A stretch of DNA of 64,000 bases from Thermoplasmata archaeon (GTDB lineage Archaea > Thermoplasmatota > Thermoplasmata > Thermoplasmatales > Thermoplasmataceae), in contig JAJZXU010000017.1 in NCBI GenBank assembly GCA_021806235.1, positions 1-64,000 of the forward strand, read 5' to 3'. Both the position numbers and the translations under genes were made by a program. Within the stretch, counting starts at the first letter, position 1; each line of letters opens with the position of its first letter. The notes below the pieces were generated by a model. The model had not been told where the DNA came from, did not search any database, and worked only from the letters and a program-made list of their open reading frames with translations. Of the stretch, positions 19,551 through 56,220 are shown piece after piece.

Positions 19551-20378
19551 TTAATCACCAGCTGACGGTGGTGTTGGTGCTGCGCCATAAAGTGTTGGTC
19601 CATAGTTGTATGTTTTACCATGGTATACAAATGTCTGGTTCATTTCTCCAGCTTTCTGCTGGTTTTCCCATTTTGTAAAGTTATGTGGTGATAATACAAA
19701 TGCAGGCCCCCTCATATGGGCATGCCCTAATCCACACAGTTCAACGCATTCAAATTCGTACAGGCCCGCCTGGGTTATATTTGTCCATATATAGTTATAA
19801 TGCCCCGGGAATGCATCCACTTTGGTTACATTGATCAGATAGAACGAATGCATTACATCAACACTCGTTACATTAAACTGTATTGGCGTATTTGCGGGCA
19901 GTACTACGAAACGCCTTGATGATGAGTGATTTGGATATATAAATATCCACTGCCACTGGTAACCAATGACGTTGATATCTGTGTAATTATGGGCGTTAGT
20001 TGGTGCGCTTGGTGCTGCTCCTGCTACCCTTATTCCATATGCCGGTGGTAAATCGTAAACAAGCAGTGATAGCAGTATAAGGACAACGAATAGCACAAAC
20101 AATTTAAATATTGCTTTATTTCCCCGCTCTATTTCCTCTATTCTACCGGGTCTCATATCCTCCTTGGGGTTATACCTTTCATTCATGAAATTATCTGCTT
20201 CTTTCTTACGGTAACTCTTTATGAATACAAAGATATACCAGAAGGCAAATCCAGCACCGATAACTATTCCTGGCAATATATATGCCAGAAATATTGATGT
20301 TATCTCAGCACCGGTTATTGACCCTTTAGGTATAAGATGGTATACATCCGGAATTATATTATATATACTTTCTAACAT
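19551..20378 (-). CDS. Cytochrome c oxidase subunit II-like protein (CuA)
   Basis: 275 residues with two membrane helices (about 27-50 and 92-112) followed by a cupredoxin domain outside the membrane. The CuA site is intact: 'VDVMHSFYLI' gives the first His, and 'ECVELCGLGHAHM' gives two Cys, a His and a Met. It probably receives electrons from the neighbouring sulfocyanin-like protein rather than cytochrome c, which the window does not encode. An AGGTG site precedes the ATG. Confidence 0.93.
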   Translation of the reverse strand: MLESIYNIIPDVYHLIPKGSITGAEITSIFLAYILPGIVIGAGFAFWYIFVFIKSYRKKEADNFMNERYNPKEDMRPGRIEEIERGNKAIFKLFVLFVVLILLSLLVYDLPPAYGIRVAGAAPSAPTNAHNYTDINVIGYQWQWIFIYPNHSSSRRFVVLPANTPIQFNVTSVDVMHSFYLINVTKVDAFPGHYNYIWTNITQAGLYEFECVELCGLGHAHMRGPAFVLSPHNFTKWENQQKAGEMNQTFVYHGKTYNYGPTLYGAAPTPPSAGD

Positions 20379-20389
20379 TTTTTTTCACC

Positions 20390-21007
20390 TCATTTTATTG
20401 TGTAATATGGAGTTGTTACATGGCTACTTACTACCACGAATACATACATACCTGCTTCAGCATGTGTGGTTAAACCGCATACTATCCAGTAATTAGCAGG
20501 CAGTGTGTTGTTCCACCATATTGCTTTGGAATGTGCTGTGTTTCCATACCATATTGGAAGTATTCCACCTGTACTGTTTATAATCTTTTTAACGTGTACA
20601 CTTGTATGTGCCCATACAGGCCCACGTGACCACTGCGATGAGTGTGGCAATTCTATTTTTAATGTGTGTGCCTTTACCTCAAAATTTGTCATATTTGCAT
20701 GTATATCTGCATGTGCCGGTAAATATATTGTCATAGCACCATATGATGTACCATTAAAGTTAAATGGGTATGCATTGGAATGTCCATTTCCCCGACCCCA
20801 TGCAGCCAGTGAAAGATTGACCACTTCATGGATTGTTCCATTTGATGAAGTTACATTGTAATATGGTATATTTCTATGTGCTACTGCACCCTGATCTGAC
20901 ATTACTGTATTTGTTGGTGCATATGATACAACTGTTATTCCTACTGCTGCGATCAATATAACTGCCACTATAAGTACTGCAAATGCAGCTTTTACTAATG
21001 TCTTCAA
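20390..21007 (-). CDS. Sulfocyanin-like blue copper protein
   Basis: A 205-residue protein with an N-terminal membrane anchor (about residues 5-28) and a cupredoxin domain. The copper ligands can be seen: a His in 'KAHTLKIELPH', Cys and His in 'WIVCGLTTHAEAGMYVFV', with Met as possible axial ligand. 'FNFNGTSYGAMTIYLPAHAD' is close to the sulfocyanin pattern. Sulfocyanin carries electrons to the oxidase in Sulfolobus and Ferroplasma. The start is a TTG at 21007, because AGGTGG lies just before it and it overlaps the TGA of the preceding gene, the usual sign of coupling. The longer ORF in the track begins inside that gene. Confidence 0.85.
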   Translation of the reverse strand: MKTLVKAAFAVLIVAVILIAAVGITVVSYAPTNTVMSDQGAVAHRNIPYYNVTSSNGTIHEVVNLSLAAWGRGNGHSNAYPFNFNGTSYGAMTIYLPAHADIHANMTNFEVKAHTLKIELPHSSQWSRGPVWAHTSVHVKKIINSTGGILPIWYGNTAHSKAIWWNNTLPANYWIVCGLTTHAEAGMYVFVVVSSHVTTPYYTIK

Positions 21008-21225
21008 GAGAACCACCTGCCCATAAATACATTCAGGAATAGCCATAGTGAAAACCATATAGCTATTACAATTATAGCAAGTGCGTACGGGTTTTTCCAT
21101 ATACCAATCTCGTTGTATTCTAAGTCGTCATCCCCCAGTTCCATTTCAACGTCCTCGTATTCGTAAGACTTTTTCATCTCCTTCTTATTTACCTTCTCAG
21201 ATTTTTCATTATTTATATCAACCAT
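21004..21225 (-). CDS. Small single-helix protein of the oxidase operon
   Basis: 73 residues: a charged, acidic N-terminal half ('YEYEDVEMELGDDDLEYNE') and one membrane helix near the C-terminus ('ALAIIVIAIWFSLWLFLNVF'). I do not recognise the family. Its position between COX1/3 and the sulfocyanin-like gene, with overlap to the latter, suggests a small oxidase subunit comparable to the short subunit IV-type peptides in other heme-copper oxidases. That role is inferred only from context. Confidence 0.75.
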   Translation of the reverse strand: MVDINNEKSEKVNKKEMKKSYEYEDVEMELGDDDLEYNEIGIWKNPYALAIIVIAIWFSLWLFLNVFMGRWFS

Positions 21226-21236
21226 TTTTTATCACC

Positions 21237-23738
21237 TCACGCCACAAAGGCTATTGTAGTGAATACACTTGTAAGGAATACAAATGCAATGAACCACATT
21301 AGTATATTTGCACTTGTTGCAGTTCTTCCCCATAATATCCTCTTGCTTTTCTTTATCTGTATCATGTATCTTACCATTACAGCTATTACACCTACAGCAA
21401 ATAATACATCCATCAATGATATCATCCAGAACATAGATGACATTGGGTTTGCTCCTATTCCTGCAAGACCAAGTGCACTGTATGAATTTATTACTACGAA
21501 TGATAACAGGGATGTTATAAGATATATCACCGCAAATACTGTTGCTATTAACATATAGCTGAATGATTTGTTTCTGTTCTTTCCTATAGCACCACCTAAT
21601 GAGAACCAGGAGAATAAACCCGCTATTCCTATAGTTATTATTGATATTGCTATATATACAGATGCCAGTGATGGGAAGAAGAATGTTGTTGGATCGCTTC
21701 CTTGCACATATGGTGAAACTGACTGTAGTTTTATCCATTCCACCATACCATAGAATGTTGCCATCCATATCATATCACCTGCAAGGAATATTAACATTCC
21801 AAGCCTCATGTTGTTGAGGCCTTTTGTAATAGGTTCTTTCCTGTATGTGGGTGGTACGTTGGGTGATTTTAATTTGTAATCATCGTACATCCATCTGAAA
21901 CAGCCCAGTACAAATATCGCCAGTGCAACTGCAACTACTACATATCCAAGATATGCATAGACTGTTCCAAAGGCGTATGGTTTATATCCCATCAGGGTTA
22001 CAACTGCACCAACGAATGCTAGGAAAAGTCCACTGGCTATAAGTAGTGGTGCAGATGATAATTCCACTTTAGATGGTGCTATTGGATGATGTTGATCCAT
22101 TAATAAATCCCTGTGATCTTTACCACCTACATATGGTTCATAGTCAAAGTTATAATATTTTGGAGGATTTGTTGTGAACCATACAAATCCTGCTGTTGCT
22201 TTGTAAGGATTTGTTTCACTTATTGGTTTGTGTTTCTTCAAAGCGTAACCAAAGTTTGCAAACATTATAAGGAAGGATAAACCGAATATAAATGCACCTA
22301 CTGTTGATATCTGGTTAATTATCGTATAACCAGATCCGGCCTGATATGTATAAACCCTTCTGGGTAAATCATACAGGAAGAACATCGGGAAATATAATAC
22401 ATTTACACCTATATATGCAATTGCCCAGTGTATTCTTCCTAATGTTTCATTATACATTTTCCCGGTAAATTTGGGGAAATAGTAATATAAGTTGCCTATT
22501 AAGGCCATTGTAGCCACTCCTACCATGAAGTAATGGAAGTGCGCCACTATGTAATAATCACCGTGAACTATTGTGTCTATGGCAAGTGATGAGTTGGTAA
22601 CTCCTGTTACACCACCTATCATAAATGATGTTGATGCTGCAAGTGCAAATAATACTGGTGTCTGGAATTTGTGCTTTGCACCAAGTAATGTTGCTATTAT
22701 GCCTACTATAAGCATTGATGTGGGTATCGATATGGTTTCTGTGAATATACTATCTGCCATTAACCATGCAAATATTATGCCTGTCATAAATGTATGATGC
22801 AGGAATACCATTACACTATCAACCGATATTGCACCCATTGCGGCTATCATCCATTTTTTAAGGTAAGGCGCCTTATGGCCAAGATTTGACAGATAGTCAA
22901 ACATTGCACCTGTTCCGGGTAATAGCAATAGGTAAACTTCTGGATGACCGAAGTACCAGAATAGGTTTTCCCACATTAATGCACCACCATATGTTGATAT
23001 GTATACTGAAAAACCAAAAACGTTTGATAGAACCAGTATAAAGAACATTGCAGTAATTTCAGGGAAGACAAACCATGATATCATTGCAACCCATAGTATA
23101 GCCCATGCGAATAAGGGTAAATCCATTAATCTGAAACCTCTTGCTCTTGCCTTGAATATTGTTGCTATAACCTCTGTAGAAGCTATTATGGTACCAAATC
23201 CCCTGAGCACCACAGCGGCAGCAGCACTATCGGCTCCAAGATATGGTGTAAATTTAAATGATGATAGGGGCTGGTATACAGTCCAGCCCGTATCTAAATT
23301 GCCACCGGGTAAAAAGAATCCCGCCCATAATAATAGTCCACTGAATAGATATAACCAGTAACCCAATGCATTAATTCTTGGGTAAATCATATCTCTTGAC
23401 CCTATTGCCAGCGGTATTAAATATATACCAAAGCCAAAACCCAGTGGGCCTAAAAACCATACTAACATTGTCAATCCATGTAGTGTTACTAACTGATTGT
23501 ACTGTAGTGCATCAAGAAATCTTCCTGAGAACAAACTGAAATTGGTAAGGTCATACCTCGGTATTGTCAGTTGTATTCTCATCAATAATGCAAGTACACC
23601 ACCTCCAATAAAGAAAACCAATGATGTCAATATATACAATAGACCTATCTGTTTATGGTTTGTTGAAAAGACCCAACCTTTCACAGAATTATAGATCTTA
23701 TTATTTTCTTCGTACACTTCATTATTTCTGCCTTCCAT
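21237..23738 (-). CDS. Fused cytochrome c oxidase subunits I and III
   Basis: Heme-copper oxygen reductase. Residues 1 to about 560 are COX1: 'QLVTLHGLTMLVWFLGPLGF' supplies a heme ligand, 'YFGHPEVYLLLLPGTG' the CuB His crosslinked to Tyr, 'MVFLHHTFMTG' the two other CuB His, and 'YIVAHFHYFMVGVATM' the His for both hemes. Residues about 600 to 833 are COX3 with 'RLGMLIFLAGDMIWM'. The glutamate of the A1 D-channel motif is not seen where expected, but placement needs an alignment. COX1-COX3 fusions occur in Sulfolobus (SoxM) and Ferroplasma. The gene heads the oxidase operon. Confidence 0.94.
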   Translation of the reverse strand: MEGRNNEVYEENNKIYNSVKGWVFSTNHKQIGLLYILTSLVFFIGGGVLALLMRIQLTIPRYDLTNFSLFSGRFLDALQYNQLVTLHGLTMLVWFLGPLGFGFGIYLIPLAIGSRDMIYPRINALGYWLYLFSGLLLWAGFFLPGGNLDTGWTVYQPLSSFKFTPYLGADSAAAAVVLRGFGTIIASTEVIATIFKARARGFRLMDLPLFAWAILWVAMISWFVFPEITAMFFILVLSNVFGFSVYISTYGGALMWENLFWYFGHPEVYLLLLPGTGAMFDYLSNLGHKAPYLKKWMIAAMGAISVDSVMVFLHHTFMTGIIFAWLMADSIFTETISIPTSMLIVGIIATLLGAKHKFQTPVLFALAASTSFMIGGVTGVTNSSLAIDTIVHGDYYIVAHFHYFMVGVATMALIGNLYYYFPKFTGKMYNETLGRIHWAIAYIGVNVLYFPMFFLYDLPRRVYTYQAGSGYTIINQISTVGAFIFGLSFLIMFANFGYALKKHKPISETNPYKATAGFVWFTTNPPKYYNFDYEPYVGGKDHRDLLMDQHHPIAPSKVELSSAPLLIASGLFLAFVGAVVTLMGYKPYAFGTVYAYLGYVVVAVALAIFVLGCFRWMYDDYKLKSPNVPPTYRKEPITKGLNNMRLGMLIFLAGDMIWMATFYGMVEWIKLQSVSPYVQGSDPTTFFFPSLASVYIAISIITIGIAGLFSWFSLGGAIGKNRNKSFSYMLIATVFAVIYLITSLLSFVVINSYSALGLAGIGANPMSSMFWMISLMDVLFAVGVIAVMVRYMIQIKKSKRILWGRTATSANILMWFIAFVFLTSVFTTIAFVA

Positions 23739-29332: not shown

Positions 29333-31555
29333 ATGATAACACAATTGCATAACCAGATGGGTAACCTTACATTAATTTTAGGACTGATTACGATAATTAT
29401 AATGGTTACTTACATAGTATTAGTATTTTCATACGTCCTCAGGCATAAATATGATATAACATTTGTAAGGGTAGCTGTAATAGGCATATTTACGGCCATG
29501 ATGGCAAGCATGCTTGACGCGTTATTACTTTATATTACAACAGCAAGGAATTTTTTAGATACAAGCCTTGCATTCGCTTTTGGAATGATTTTAATGACAC
29601 AACCGCTGGTTGCAACGTTTGTTGGAGTGATGCATGGCGGATTGCACAGAAAAGGTATTACAAAATCAAATTCAATAGCATTTACCGGGCTTATAGTATG
29701 GAATGAAATATCTATGGGATTATTCCTCTATTATCTTTTTAACCCAACAATAATACATTTTGACTATTATCATGCATTTTATTCCCCTGATTTTATATAT
29801 GCCCTAAGTAATGGAATAAATACCCTGTATTTCCTTATACCCATGAGCGTAGAGATGATTGCATTATTCTTTGTTTATAAACCAAAGGGAATGCATAAAT
29901 ATGCGGCAATATCAATATTTACTATGGATTTATTTTCCCCCACAATACTGGGGAACGATAAATTTGTTTTCATAGGTGGTGTTGGAGAAACAGCGGTTAT
30001 GATAATATTTATGATAATATTCTTTGAATTCATAGCATCACACAAAATGGTACTGCCCAGAGAAGATGCATACCATATAAAAATGATTTTTATAGACTAT
30101 GGCCTTATGGCAGCGGGAACCTTTATCGGTACAATTGTGTTAAAACCATTCGGACTTGTGTGGATATTCTACGCAATGGCTATAATATTTGGTATGTGGT
30201 ATTATTTCCAGAGCATGTTTTCAGTAACAATAAACACAACCACAGAGGTAACAGAGAACAATATTGAGATAAAAAGAAAGAAAACTGTATCAAAACCTGC
30301 CTATTTAATCTTCTTTGTACTGGTAACATCATTTGTATCTGAACTTCTAATGGCAGGTGCGATGGATTTTGCAACGTATGATTACCTTCCCTTTTATAAT
30401 GTTATAGATACTTTGCCTGTTTACGGCCATATTACTATAGCTTCCTTTTATGCAAAGGATGTGTTAAAAGAATTTGTTTCTCCATTTGTTCCAGCTACAA
30501 CAGGAACTAAAAATTTTCTTGTTTTCTACGATATGGCCGGCGGTGTTTATAAATTCACACCTGTATCCATATTTATTGAAATTTTATACATTATTGGTTT
30601 TATAACGGTTTCAACAACATTTTTAATTATAATGGGTATAGAGATGGGTGTCCTGGTAATAGCACAGATGAGAAAATTAAAGGATAGGGGAAAAAGAATA
30701 AACTTAACATTTGCATTAACAGCATATATATTATATACAATATTTGGGCCAAACTTCCTTGATCCGGCATGGTATAATAAATTGCCCCTGTGGGCAAATA
30801 CTGGTGCAGAGGCAGCATTATACCCAGATCTCATAATACCTTTACTTGGGTCATATGCATTATACGCAGTGCTTGCATTATTATTCGGAAGAAGGTCATA
30901 CTGCTCCACCTTATGCCCATCTGCAGTAATGTTTGGCGGTACTTTAGGGCAATCCATGATACAGTACAATTATAATACAAAAATAAGTAAAAAAATGCGT
31001 GGAAGCAAATTTACAGATTCCATAATGTTTATAGCAACAGGTAGCTGGCTATGGGCTATACTGGCATCATTATTTTCATATTTTTATACAACTACTGGCA
31101 ATTTAACATTCAGCATCTATGGCATAGACCCCTCAGTATTTTATTCGTATTTTATCTGGAATTTATTATGGTATGTATTCTTCTTTTCAATACCGTTTGT
31201 TGGTATGAGCCCGTGCCGTAAATACGGATGGTGCTCTACCGGCACTCTGGTAGGATTTTTCAGTGTTCTGGGATTTTTCAAACTTAAGGTTAAGGATAAA
31301 AATTTATGTAAAACATGTAAAACAAAGGATTGTGCAAAATCCTGTGAGGTTGGTTTATCCACAATGCCCGGGTCATTTATCAAAAATGGTTCCTTCAAGA
31401 GTATTAAATGTGTTGGTTCTGGAGATTGCATAAGGGCATGCCCGTATGATAACATATATTTTTATGATGTGAGGAATTATCTGGGTGAAAAACTCATGCA
31501 TAAAAAAGCAGATAAAAATGAGGAAATAACAAAACTTAAGGAAAATGATTGGTGA
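29333..31555 (+). CDS. FixG/NapH-like membrane polyferredoxin
   Basis: 740 residues. Residues 1 to about 500 hold 10-12 membrane helices with several His pairs near the membrane ('VGVMHGGLHRKG'). The second part resembles the NapH/FixG type: 'RRSYCSTLCPSAVMFGG' and 'GMSPCRKYGWCSTGTLVGFF' carry the CxxxCP-type motifs. A ferredoxin-like tail follows, with 'CKTCKTKDCAKSCEVG' and 'CVGSGDCIRACPYDNIYF', eight Cys for two 4Fe-4S clusters. FixG/CcoG proteins reduce copper during oxidase assembly and NapH passes electrons from quinol; either fits. The large N-terminal membrane half is not part of ordinary FixG. Confidence 0.82.
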   Translation: MITQLHNQMGNLTLILGLITIIIMVTYIVLVFSYVLRHKYDITFVRVAVIGIFTAMMASMLDALLLYITTARNFLDTSLAFAFGMILMTQPLVATFVGVMHGGLHRKGITKSNSIAFTGLIVWNEISMGLFLYYLFNPTIIHFDYYHAFYSPDFIYALSNGINTLYFLIPMSVEMIALFFVYKPKGMHKYAAISIFTMDLFSPTILGNDKFVFIGGVGETAVMIIFMIIFFEFIASHKMVLPREDAYHIKMIFIDYGLMAAGTFIGTIVLKPFGLVWIFYAMAIIFGMWYYFQSMFSVTINTTTEVTENNIEIKRKKTVSKPAYLIFFVLVTSFVSELLMAGAMDFATYDYLPFYNVIDTLPVYGHITIASFYAKDVLKEFVSPFVPATTGTKNFLVFYDMAGGVYKFTPVSIFIEILYIIGFITVSTTFLIIMGIEMGVLVIAQMRKLKDRGKRINLTFALTAYILYTIFGPNFLDPAWYNKLPLWANTGAEAALYPDLIIPLLGSYALYAVLALLFGRRSYCSTLCPSAVMFGGTLGQSMIQYNYNTKISKKMRGSKFTDSIMFIATGSWLWAILASLFSYFYTTTGNLTFSIYGIDPSVFYSYFIWNLLWYVFFFSIPFVGMSPCRKYGWCSTGTLVGFFSVLGFFKLKVKDKNLCKTCKTKDCAKSCEVGLSTMPGSFIKNGSFKSIKCVGSGDCIRACPYDNIYFYDVRNYLGEKLMHKKADKNEEITKLKENDW

Positions 31556-31561
31556 ATTAAA

Positions 31562-32338
31562 ATGAATGTAATATTATATTACTATTTTATATTCCAGACA
31601 GTTCTTGCATTTGGAATAGTTATAGTTGGCGGTACCGTTGAGGGTTACGGCTATGGCTTATCCCTCGGAACCAACTGGCCATATACAAAGGACATGCCAT
31701 TAAAGGCAAAGGCCGGAGACCCGGAGGTATGGCATAGAATACTTGCAACATTCCTGGGCATTGATGCTGTTATAATGGTTGTGTTAATACACGGAGCACT
31801 TGAAATTACCGGGCTTATCTTAATTATACTTACCGCTTTGCTTGGAATGGCAACCCTGTATACACTGGCAGGCAAAGCTCCATCTGTTGTGCAGGGACTG
31901 CATGATGTACTTGCATATTCAACGGCAATTACATATCTATTGATAGTTACAGGATCATATCCTAATGAAATATCATTAATAATTCATAATATACCGTTAT
32001 TATTCTTCTTTATAGTAATATATATGGGTGGTATGACCACCGGGGAGAGAGGGTATCAGAAAGCAATAGGCTATTTCAAATTTCCTAAAACAAGACCACA
32101 GTGGATATGGACGGTCCACGGGATAAGTGTTGTAATATTCCTATTTTCTCTAATATTTTTCTTTTACAGATACAATATAGCCCTAATAATAATAGCATTT
32201 CAGATAATAGTTGGCATAATAGTATTTATATCGGTTAATAAATCTGCATCAAAACCTGGATTTATAATACCATTGCATCAATTTTTTACAATATTAATAG
32301 TTATATCAATTATACTTCAATTAAGTATATTTAAATAA
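31562..32338 (+). CDS. CtaA/COX15-like heme A synthase homologue
   Basis: 258 residues and about eight membrane helices. The first half fits heme A synthase: 'EGYGYGLSLGTNWPY' is a shortened version of the loop after helix 1, 'EVWHRILATFLGI' matches the conserved HR-x-x-A helix, and 'GLHDVLAYSTA' gives a second His helix. In the second half 'WTVHGISVV' and 'PLHQFFTIL' provide His at roughly equivalent places. With CtaB also in this window, heme A or a variant could be made for the oxidase. The second half is divergent, so another heme or quinol function is possible. It starts six bases after the FixG-like stop, hence one operon. Confidence 0.62.
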   Translation: MNVILYYYFIFQTVLAFGIVIVGGTVEGYGYGLSLGTNWPYTKDMPLKAKAGDPEVWHRILATFLGIDAVIMVVLIHGALEITGLILIILTALLGMATLYTLAGKAPSVVQGLHDVLAYSTAITYLLIVTGSYPNEISLIIHNIPLLFFFIVIYMGGMTTGERGYQKAIGYFKFPKTRPQWIWTVHGISVVIFLFSLIFFFYRYNIALIIIAFQIIVGIIVFISVNKSASKPGFIIPLHQFFTILIVISIILQLSIFK

Positions 32339-51082: not shown

Positions 51083-51967
51083 TCAGGAACTTCCATAAAT
51101 CCTGTTTAGTAGTTTCCTAACGGCAGGAACTATTTTACTGTTGCTGGTTAATAATGATTTTACTGATGGATCCACAGTTCTTAGATTTTTATCAAAGGGA
51201 ATCTGGTCAACTGTAAATGGTATGCTGGAATCGATTTCGTCTATAAGGCTATCAATATCCTCCTTATTGCCTGCAACCCTGTTAAAAACAAGGTGAATGT
51301 TTTTTATTCCAAGATCCCATGCCAGTGTTACTGCACTTGCTGCGACCTGTATAGAGTTAAAAGATACCTCACTGACCACTATTGCATGACCGAAACCTCT
51401 TGCTATGGCCCTTCCAAAATGCTCCACTCCAGCTTCAGTATCCATAAGAATCCGTTCATCATTTCTGATCGATATGTGCCTCACCACAGATTCCAAAAGA
51501 TCGTTCTCAGGGCACAGACATCCTATTCCCGATTTGTGTAATGTTCCCATCACAAGTATGCTGATTTTATCGTTGATACCTATTCCAAATCTTTCTACAA
51601 CGTCGCTTACATCAGGATTAAGTGAGAGAAATTCACCCCATCCAGATCCGGGCCTGGCACCGGTTTTCTCCTCGATATAATCTGCCTGAACATTTAGGGG
51701 CACGATTTTCGCTGCAACTTTTCTGTCAAGTCCAAGAGCATACGGCAGGTTCATCTGTGGATCAGCATCAACATCCAGAACTTTATGTTTCTCTGCAATA
51801 AGATATGAGAGAATTGCAGTTATAGTAGTCTTGCCAGTTCCACCCTTTCCAGTAATTACAATCCTGTTTTCTGGATTGTTAATACCGGCTGATTCAGCTC
51901 CCATTACCAGATCCTTGACCCTGCTATCTCTTTCTTCCTCACCAGAGAGTATAAATTCTGAACACAT
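51083..51967 (-). CDS. cooC: CooC-type nickel-insertion ATPase for CODH
   Basis: 294 residues. A 38-residue N-terminal extension precedes the deviant Walker A 'VITGKGGTGKTTITAILSYL', followed by 'VLDVDADPQMNLPYALGL' (switch I) and 'DERILMDTEAGVEHFGRA' (Walker B/switch II). The metal-binding CXC, which receives Ni(II) or Zn(II) at the dimer interface, is 'KSGIGCLCPENDLL'. These are the features of MinD-like CooC proteins that load nickel into CooS. The ATG at 51967 follows a GGTGAT site; the ORF start at 51976 is a GTG inside that site. It starts ten bases after cooS. GC is above the local background. Confidence 0.94.
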   Translation of the reverse strand: MCSEFILSGEEERDSRVKDLVMGAESAGINNPENRIVITGKGGTGKTTITAILSYLIAEKHKVLDVDADPQMNLPYALGLDRKVAAKIVPLNVQADYIEEKTGARPGSGWGEFLSLNPDVSDVVERFGIGINDKISILVMGTLHKSGIGCLCPENDLLESVVRHISIRNDERILMDTEAGVEHFGRAIARGFGHAIVVSEVSFNSIQVAASAVTLAWDLGIKNIHLVFNRVAGNKEDIDSLIDEIDSSIPFTVDQIPFDKNLRTVDPSVKSLLTSNSKIVPAVRKLLNRIYGSS

Positions 51968-51977
51968 TTTTATCACC

Positions 51978-53936
51978 CTATGTAGGAAGCCCGAGGGCTT
52001 TTCTTTTTTCCTTTATTATCGCTACCATTTCTTTAGCTGCCTTTTCCGGATCCATCTCGCTAAAAGCCTCGGCTCCGGTAAGATCCTTCAGGCTTTCCGA
52101 GAGAATCCCCTTAACCTGTTTTCCACCTTCTATATGTAGTTCTGGAGCAGTATGAAGTGGAAGTCCTATGGATAGGGCCCATGTTCCAATAGCCACGGCC
52201 TTTTCTGTAATAAGCTCGGGAGCCGATGCAACTACAGGCAGGGCAGAAACATCAACATCCAGTTTTTCTGAAATATTCTTTACCAGAACCCCTATTCTTG
52301 AATTATCCACACAGGAACCCATATGAAGGGTTGGAGGAAGAGAACTCATACCGGCAACACCACCAAGTTCTTTTAGTGTTTCCCTTAATCCATTGCCCAT
52401 CTCAAATTCATCTATCCTCGCAGGGTTCATGAAACCTTCCTGAGCCGATATATGTGCAATACATCCAGTAACCAGAACCAGTATATTGTTCTTGAAAAGT
52501 TCTCTAATTAGCCTCTCAGTATAAAGTTCCCTGCGTAGTTTTGGATTTGGGCAACCCACAATGCCAACTATACCGTATATGTCGCCTTTTACGATTTTGT
52601 CAATCAATGGTTTCAGTGGATCCTCATTATTTACTTTAGCAAGCAGTTTGGTTATAGCCTCCACTGAAAATCCACCAACCACTGGTTCAACCTGTTTAGA
52701 TAACAGTACACGGGATGGATCACGTTTTACGTAAGCTTTAAGGGCTTCCCTTACAATCTGTTCCGCCACCTCATCAGCACGTTCCGGCGAATACTCTATA
52801 TGCAGTGCTCCAGGGATCTTGACATATGGAATTGTTGTAATAAGCTTTGTATGATAGCATGACGCAACCTCACCAAGAACTGGCCATATACACTGGAAGT
52901 CCACAACCATTGCATCAAGCGCCCCTGTTGCAATTGCAAGTTCTGCCTGCATTTCGTTGGCTGCCATGGGTACACCGTGTCGCATTAGAACCTCATTTCC
53001 ACTGCAGCACACACCAACAAGATTGAGTCCCCTCGCGCCCAGTTTCTTTGCCTCATCATCAAGGCGTTCTGCCCATTCAACAACCTTCTCAGCCACCAGT
53101 GGATTATGTCCGTGTATGGCCAGATTAACATAATCTTCCTTCAAAACTCCAATATTTGCAGTTGAATTTACAACTTCAGGGGTTCCAAATAGAATATCGG
53201 ATAACTCTGTACTTGGGGTAAGACCTGAATACCCATCAAGAATTCCCATTCTAATATCTGCAAGGAGAATATTACTTACCTCCGCATCATTTCCCATGCT
53301 GGTTCTATGAAGGGCATTCATTATAAATGACCACGAATTGGATGGAATAATATTTAGATTCTTCCAGTGAAGATAGCTTGATGAGGGTGCGTATCCCTTT
53401 ACCCAGACCATAGGCTCATGGTCAGCCTTACTGAAATCAGCAATTGTTACATCTGCTATTTCATTTGCTATTTGTTTATCTGTCTTTCCCTCAACTTCAA
53501 TTCCCAGATTTGATGCAACACTTAATAACTTAGTCTTATCCTTTATTTCATAACCCTTTATCTTATTAGTGGCTACAAGCTTCAATGTCTCTGCTATTTC
53601 AAATGCATGTTCTGCATGCGATGCGGTTCCACCAACAGTCTCACGGAGCAGATTCCTTGCAACTATAGTATCGGCTGTGGCCCCACAGACCCCCCTTGAA
53701 GCACCCCTGTTGAATCTTGCACTGGTAATCCTGCATGGACCCATGTAACAGATTCTACAGCAAACACCCCACTCGCCGAACCAGCACGAGGGATCCTGTT
53801 TTGACAACCTTTCGAAGGAAGATGTGCCTGTATCATCCATAATTTTATGAACCAGATCAATGGACGGTTTTGTGGCTGTTGATGATCCAAATCTTCCAAG
53901 TTTTAAATCAAATTTTTGTTCGTTTTCTTTTTGCAT
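51978..53936 (-). CDS. cooS: Ni,Fe carbon monoxide dehydrogenase catalytic subunit
   Basis: 652 residues; interconverts CO and CO2. B and D cluster Cys: 'DPSCWFGEWGVCCRICYMG', 'PCRITSARFN' and 'SRGVCGA'. C cluster: His in 'NLAIHGHNP' (about 277), Cys in 'GVCCSGNEVLM', 'DFQCIWPVLG', 'IVGCPNPKLR', 'LVTGCIAHISAQEG' and 'LHMGSCVDNSR'. Acid-base residues are in 'GGTASHAEHAFEIAETL' and 'ELITEKAVAIGTWAL'. Nothing essential is lacking. No CooF ferredoxin, hydrogenase or acetyl-CoA synthase genes are nearby, only cooC. GC is about 48 percent in one line counted, well above the genes around. The protein is cytoplasmic with no signal peptide. Confidence 0.96.
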   Translation of the reverse strand: MQKENEQKFDLKLGRFGSSTATKPSIDLVHKIMDDTGTSSFERLSKQDPSCWFGEWGVCCRICYMGPCRITSARFNRGASRGVCGATADTIVARNLLRETVGGTASHAEHAFEIAETLKLVATNKIKGYEIKDKTKLLSVASNLGIEVEGKTDKQIANEIADVTIADFSKADHEPMVWVKGYAPSSSYLHWKNLNIIPSNSWSFIMNALHRTSMGNDAEVSNILLADIRMGILDGYSGLTPSTELSDILFGTPEVVNSTANIGVLKEDYVNLAIHGHNPLVAEKVVEWAERLDDEAKKLGARGLNLVGVCCSGNEVLMRHGVPMAANEMQAELAIATGALDAMVVDFQCIWPVLGEVASCYHTKLITTIPYVKIPGALHIEYSPERADEVAEQIVREALKAYVKRDPSRVLLSKQVEPVVGGFSVEAITKLLAKVNNEDPLKPLIDKIVKGDIYGIVGIVGCPNPKLRRELYTERLIRELFKNNILVLVTGCIAHISAQEGFMNPARIDEFEMGNGLRETLKELGGVAGMSSLPPTLHMGSCVDNSRIGVLVKNISEKLDVDVSALPVVASAPELITEKAVAIGTWALSIGLPLHTAPELHIEGGKQVKGILSESLKDLTGAEAFSEMDPEKAAKEMVAIIKEKRKALGLPT

Positions 53937-53949
53937 ACTTAATTAATCT

Positions 53950-53962
53950 TAAAATATATATC
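53950..53962 (-). promoter_or_regulatory. TATA element of the cooS-cooC operon
   Basis: On the minus strand 'GATATATATTTTA' lies 15-27 bases before the cooS ATG at 53936. The short distance implies a leaderless or nearly leaderless transcript. No inverted repeat is seen between it and the start codon. Confidence 0.45.
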
Positions 53963-55254: not shown

Positions 55255-56220
55255 TTATTCAGATATAGATTCTAAGGTTTTTCTTGATGTTACAGGTCCA
55301 CCTATTGCCATTATAATTCCTGCTATTAACCCTGTTATTGCTATAAATATAAAACCTGTAGAGAATGTGTATAATGAAACTATTATGGGCAATATTATGG
55401 CACCTAAGGCCCCACCAATATGGCCTAAACCATCTGTTAATGCAAATCCAGAGGCTCTGGCTCTTGTCGGGTAACTCTATGCTGTGTAGGTATATGCCAC
55501 CTGCAAATACATTCCCAGTGCCAGTGAAGCCATAAATGACCCTATTAATAATGTTGGTTCGGTTTTAAGTGAAAATATTAAAAGGCCTACAAACCATACT
55601 ATTGTATCCATAAATATAACATATTTTCTTTCGTATTTATCTGCAGTTAGTGCCATTAATATTGCACCTACGGGATAACCTACTGCACCTATTCCTAAAT
55701 ACAGTATTGATTTTGCTAACGGTATATGGGCGGCTGCCAGTAAAGTTGCTGCATCCCCTAAAAATGCGTAGTTGCCTATATACCAGAAAAACCATGCAAA
55801 AACTAGGATTGTTAATCTTTTCGAGTATACTTTTCCCTCTCTGCCCTCAAACAGGTATAATGTCGGAAACCTTGTTTTATATTCCTCTAAATTTACCTCC
55901 TCAGGATGTGATGCCGGTAATTTACCATAACGTTTTTCTGCTATAGTTTCCATCATTGCAAGGATAGATTCAGCCTTACCAAAATTATTCTTTTTCAGTA
56001 CAAGCCATCTTGGTGATTCCGGTAATTCGAATCTTAACAGTAATGCTATTACAGCTATTATACCGCCTATGGCAAATAGATATCTCCATCCATTATAAAA
56101 TACAGGCACTAAACCTAAAGCGACAAAGGGTACCAGTGCCTGCCCCATTATACCCAGTATAAATGCATAAACTGTTATAAAAATGGAGATCAATTTTGCC
56201 TTAGAGGTGCCGATAAACAT
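55255..56220 (-). pseudogene. MFS transporter pseudogene: N-terminus lost, in-frame TAG
   Basis: The frame from 56220 to a TAG at 55477-55479 encodes helices about 5-10 of a sugar-porter-type MFS protein ('FELPESPRWLVLKKNNFGKA', 'LTADKYERKYV'). After the TAG the same frame continues 73 codons with 'SYPTRARASGFALTDGLGHI', exactly the expected next segment, so TAG replaces a sense codon (GAG expected) by one base change. Upstream of 56220 a stop follows within eight codons and no MFS sequence is seen, so helices 1-4 are missing. Both defects argue for a dead gene. A sequencing error could explain the TAG but not the truncation. It lies 69 bases from tRNA-Thr. Confidence 0.85.

Follow-up and report, generated by a model that had tools for sequence, protein, structure and literature searches.

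The cooS-cooC gene pair of this Thermoplasmata archaeon is a conserved two-gene unit under purifying selection, and it appears from its sequence to encode a complete, working nickel-containing CO dehydrogenase (Ni-CODH) together with its helper protein. On balance, we lean toward a reading in which this is a laterally acquired, probably functional, monofunctional CODH of clade F, similar to that of Candidatus Kryptonia, that would pass electrons from CO to ferredoxin, then to complex I, and so into respiration.

The window (the whole 64,000-nucleotide stretch of DNA that was analysed) is contig 8 of a 1.93 Mb genome in 37 contigs (G000), which is 99% complete and contains one CooS. Both open reading frames are real, intact and adjacent, as the sequence-only reading had described them, and they lie between dnaG and an RNA ligase gene. 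The features of the locus are as follows:

51978..53936, minus strand: cooS, Ni-containing CO dehydrogenase catalytic subunit, 652 aa (TIGR01702, 647 bits; 14 ligand and catalytic residues)
51083..51967, or to 51976 with a GTG start, minus strand: cooC, Ni-insertion ATPase (3kje match; GKGGTGKTT, GCLCP)
51972..51977, minus strand: GGTGAT, Shine-Dalgarno-like site of cooC, just past the cooS stop codon (from the sequence)
53950..53962, minus strand: TATA-like element GATATATATTTTA, 14-26 bases 5' of the cooS ATG (from the sequence)
53735..53786, minus strand: codons for the CooS D-/B-cluster cysteines C51-C68, C-x7-CC, type II D-cluster (alignment to CODH-II)

In a profile search, CooS matched the TIGR01702 family, "anaerobic carbon-monoxide dehydrogenase catalytic subunit", well above its cutoff of 478 bits (E 2.4e-194), and also Pfam Prismane (E 1.2e-153). 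All cluster cysteines and the His/Lys pair had previously been picked out by eye, and alignment to the positions of CODH-II, using a residue numbering that we take to be that of the CODH-II structure, recovers 14 of 14 cluster-ligand and catalytic residues. These are C51 and C59 of the D-cluster, C60, C63, C68 and C84 of the B-cluster, H277, C311, C349, C462, C492 and C542 of the C-cluster, and the acid-base residues H107 and K579. The family match and this full residue set identify a Ni-CODH of the CooS type, and the C-x7-CC spacing of its D-cluster is the "type II" of Inoue 2019. CooC is homologous to the solved CooC 3kje (E 4.4e-34) and carries both a P-loop and the CXC motif noted earlier, which marks it as the Ni-insertion ATPase. 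Its start is probably the ATG at 51967 rather than the GTG at 51976, since the ribosome-binding-like site (51977-51972) directly follows the cooS stop codon, and the two genes may be translationally coupled within a single operon. The TATA-like element is weak evidence, since it is kept only in a 97%-identical relative.

Among 77 genomes of the family, CooS was found in six: three of ten from the same genus, two in a second genus and one in a third. It is absent from the remaining seven same-genus genomes, including three that are single contigs. CooS identity among the six genomes is 77-97%, and in each of them cooC directly follows cooS, although the surrounding genes place the pair at four distinct loci (dnaG/RNA ligase; MFS/phosphoribosyltransferase; isochorismatase or DNA glycosylase/Nudix-PEPC; and Asd). 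Compared with the 97%-identical relative, dN/dS is 0.09 for cooS and 0.08 for cooC, somewhat above the 0.03 of dnaG and the LonB-like gene in the same close pair but still clearly purifying; cooS values against three genomes at 77-78% identity are 0.07-0.09, with dS near saturation. Purifying selection, together with a full set of active-site residues and the accompanying maturase, argues for a working CO enzyme. A clean "empty site" was sought in CooS-lacking relatives and rejected: the genes after dnaG are different and rearranged in five of them (G020, G021, G023, G026 and G028), so that no simple insertion can be made out there.

The CooS phylogeny, a check that the sequence-only reading had proposed, gave a clade F placement with Kryptonia as the sister. 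In a tree of 36 sequences, which includes just four PDB anchors and has long branches in places, the archaeal CooS unit and the Ca. Kryptonia CooS form a 100/100 clade. This clade falls inside a 98/98 group with CODH-IV (6elq), CODH-II and the CODH/ACS-type CooS of other Thermoplasmata, apart from the clade E anchors of Thermococcus AM4 and N. vulgaris, and the assignment to clade F follows from that of the CODH-II and CODH-IV anchors (PMC13056359). The other Thermoplasmata CooS sampled group with CODH-II, apart from the window CooS. In two other members of the class (L041:1441-4851 in G273 and L044:1441-4878 in G299), the CooS frame runs on into acetyl-CoA synthase, giving a CODH-ACS fusion protein with Prismane, CODH_A_N and CdhC domains. 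Similar open frames of about 1360-1415 aa occur in many other genomes of the class, and a literature search returned no paper obviously describing a CooS-CdhC single-polypeptide fusion.

The nearest non-archaeal CooS is that of Ca. Kryptonia, and no other close CooS was present in 396 genomes of the Kryptonia phylum, so the direct donor appears to be unsampled. The pair is probably a bacterial gene unit that was laterally acquired, and the tree suggests that transfer ran from bacterium to archaeon. The simplest history would be transfer from a bacterium with a Kryptonia-like operon, of which only cooS-cooC was retained; the pair would then have moved to new loci or been passed on again between family members. 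Neither this probable origin, the patchy presence within the genus nor the recurrence of the two-gene unit at different loci had been recognized in the sequence-only reading. The cooS region has a GC content of 42% against 34% for the window, but this excess is largely due to amino-acid content and cannot date a transfer. Composition was rejected as a sign of recent transfer, since the GC3 of cooS (0.345) lies inside the window range (median 0.30, maximum 0.40). Transfer by plasmid was also considered and set aside, as only two distant plasmid CooS were found. In Neobacillus sp. PS3-12 (L014, 4663-8759), cooC and clade-E/F-like cooS fragments are split by other open reading frames, resembling a broken copy.

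Partner families were searched one by one over G000, a draft in 37 contigs, and nine relatives. CdhC, the acetyl-CoA synthase, was found in 0 of 10 genomes, and no NiFe-hydrogenase large subunit scored above cutoff in any of them; control genomes were positive for both, and PF00374 was absent from G000. G000 therefore appears to contain neither a Wood-Ljungdahl CODH/ACS (no CdhC/AcsB) nor a hydrogenogenic CODH/ECH system (no NiFe subunit with Ni-binding CxxC pairs). A CooF query retrieved no full-length homologue from these genomes, only short 4Fe-4S ferredoxins; its sole match in G000 (C23) was a 74-aa 2[4Fe-4S] ferredoxin adjoining a geranylgeranyl-reductase-type gene, which it may serve. 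The candidate ferredoxin partners turned out to be this protein and a FixX beside FixC. In a genus relative (G022), FixX-/FixC-like genes for an ETF-quinone oxidoreductase (L008:9966-11518, minus strand) lie 2-4 kb from cooS-cooC, probably by chance because the FixX-like ferredoxin also occurs in CooS-lacking relatives. CooF and FNOR are beside cooS in none of the six archaeal genomes, which thus have no CODH-IV-type operon. FNOR was rejected as a hidden partner, since every genome has matches at 30% identity, and these are stronger in some without CooS. Aerobic Mo-CODH of form I was likewise rejected as the true CO enzyme: G000 encodes two CoxL-like proteins, which at 188 and 174 bits against a cutoff of 991 are not form I CoxL, as in CooS-lacking relatives. 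The sequence-only reading had described only two genes with no acetyl-CoA synthase, hydrogenase or CooF partner, and its proposed search for CooF, CdhC and hydrogenase bore this out genome-wide, with no alternative locus found that would use this CooS.

No redox partner or CO-related function was found among the neighbouring genes, which are dnaG, a LonB-like ATPase, a 2'-5' RNA ligase, a broken MFS gene and a protein disulfide oxidoreductase. The MFS transporter gene (55477-56220, minus strand), two genes upstream of cooS, is a pseudogene that lacks its 5' part and contains an in-frame TAG; the 97%-identical relative has an intact 460-aa copy (L007, 5304-6686). The heme-copper oxidase genes reported earlier on the same chromosome were confirmed, spanning 18.6-23.7 kb of the window, about 27-34 kb from cooS-cooC:

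21237-23738: COX1, confirmed in the window
20390-21100: sulfocyanin, confirmed in the window
19551-20378: COX2, confirmed in the window

Also in the window, a 740-aa protein that spans the membrane several times and carries a NapH-like ferredoxin domain at its C-terminus (29333-31555, plus strand) is encoded next to a membrane-type protein without a family match (31562-32338, plus strand). Lying about 20 kb from cooS, the two could form a redox pair linked to quinone.

Two NuoD-type proteins are encoded in G000. One belongs to an 11-subunit NuoABCDHIJKLMN locus, and NuoE, F and G were not found in the stretch read around it; the other is part of a Hyf-like membrane complex, and the Ni-binding Cys pairs are missing from the large subunit of that complex. 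Given that neither an acetyl-CoA synthase nor a hydrogenase was found, the evidence best fits CO oxidation with electrons that would pass through ferredoxin to complex I or to the Hyf-like complex. CooC would load nickel into CooS, and the CooS homodimer would oxidise low-level CO (CO + H2O -> CO2 + 2 e- + 2 H+) where oxygen is scarce within acid biofilms or sediments. Lacking CooF and FNOR, CooS may pass electrons from its exposed D-cluster to a 2[4Fe-4S] ferredoxin of general use. That ferredoxin would in turn feed the complex I without an NADH module, or the related Ni-less Hyf-like complex, from which electrons would reach the quinone pool and finally O2 or Fe(III). Complex I and ferredoxin would be merely available rather than dedicated, since CooS-lacking close relatives have the same complexes. 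No gene neighbour or co-occurring gene identifies an electron acceptor, and the sequence-only reading had likewise found none evident. Ni-CODHs are usually oxygen-sensitive, which counts against this best explanation. Richmond Mine air contains up to 50 ppm CO, as cited in the main text of Yelton et al. 2013 (PMC3750248), where a complex I without NuoEFG and a CxxC-less Hyf-like subunit are also described in these archaea. A more general possibility, less likely than not, is that a transferred, partner-stripped clade F Ni-CODH feeds ferredoxin and an NADH-module-less complex I in oxygen-respiring acidophilic archaea, making cooS-cooC a pluggable respiratory module.

The main rival, which we regard as unlikely, is that the enzyme resembles CODH-IV in acting as an oxygen or redox-stress sink, using electrons from trace CO to remove O2 or peroxide rather than for energy. 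The host respires oxygen, and CODH-IV is the best-scoring solved relative (659 bits, with 562 for the next), still has 20% of its activity after 1 h under O2 (PMC13056359) and belongs to clusters thought to serve oxidative-stress defence (PMC6896113). However, its CooF and FNOR partners are missing beside cooS in all six genomes, the FNOR-like flavoproteins encoded elsewhere show no greater similarity in genomes with CooS than in those without it, and the archaeal unit is not specifically sister to CODH-IV in the tree. It is improbable that CooS has another main activity, such as the hydroxylamine or NO-type reduction of hybrid-cluster proteins, or is a sensor. While it shares the Prismane superfamily and weakly matches hydroxylamine reductase models, it keeps all C-cluster ligands and both acid-base residues, which vary in clades C, D and G, and it is always accompanied by CooC.

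The patchy presence (6/77), lack of partner genes and adjacent pseudogene would also fit a recently acquired, non-functional passenger that is being lost, but this is very improbable: both genes are intact in 6/6 genomes, even at 77% identity, and their dN/dS is low; they remain so beside an MFS gene that decays, and a GC3 within the range of other window genes speaks against a very recent arrival. Least probable is that CO2 is reduced to CO to supply a new pathway of carbon fixation. Enzymes of this class work in both directions, but the genome has no acetyl-CoA synthase and no known CO-using enzyme, and CO2 reduction demands very low-potential electrons, which an aerobic heterotroph is unlikely to spare. 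This route was suggested for Fer2 in the main text of Yelton et al. 2013 (PMC3750248).

If the favored route from CO through ferredoxin to complex I is functional, it would show that an aerobic acidophile can run a Ni-CODH with its maturase alone, using the host's ferredoxin and respiratory chain, and that CO electrons might enter at an NADH-module-less complex I. What is still of interest is where the CooS electrons go. Since CooF and FNOR are retained in the bacterial sister operon, comparison with it also offers a natural way to learn which CODH partners can be dispensed with once the enzyme has been transferred.

A Ni-CODH and maturation factor pair is already known from Ferroplasma. The main text of Yelton et al. 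2013 (PMC3750248) reports Ni-CODH fer2_31_0047 with an adjacent maturation factor in Ferroplasma type II, its absence from Fer1 and a lack of Wood-Ljungdahl genes; fer2_31_0047 and the window cooS are probably the same gene or orthologs, and G000 most likely represents Ferroplasma type II or a very near relative. The sequence-only reading had suspected such a Ferroplasma precedent but placed the novelty in the stand-alone setting, a claim that is not supported, as very small CooS-CooC operons are frequent in clades E and F (eLife 2026 survey, PMC13056359) and the setting is thus not unusual by itself. What this analysis adds is the kinship with Kryptonia, the recurrence of the two genes as a portable unit at four loci, and a set of genome-wide searches whose negative results bring the question of the electron acceptor into sharper focus; the main text of PMC3750248 contains no Kryptonia relation, multi-locus recurrence or CooF test. 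In Nitratidesulfovibrio vulgaris, a small CooS and CooC operon likewise lacks a dedicated redox partner (PMC13056359), but it is of clade E, its D-cluster is of type III and the operon also includes a transcriptional regulator. The closest solved relative, CODH-IV of Carboxydothermus hydrogenoformans (6elq, clade F; CooS 48.6% identical), shares the complete C-cluster and type II D-cluster, whereas its operon has FeS and NAD/FAD oxidoreductase genes (PMC13056359) that are absent beside the window cooS. The supported sister, Ca. Kryptonia (L009; CooS 61% and CooC about 56% identical), has the same cooS-cooC order within a locus of sigma-54 activator, cooF, cooS, cooC, FNOR, acetyltransferase and NiFe hydrogenase genes, of which the archaea have only cooS-cooC.
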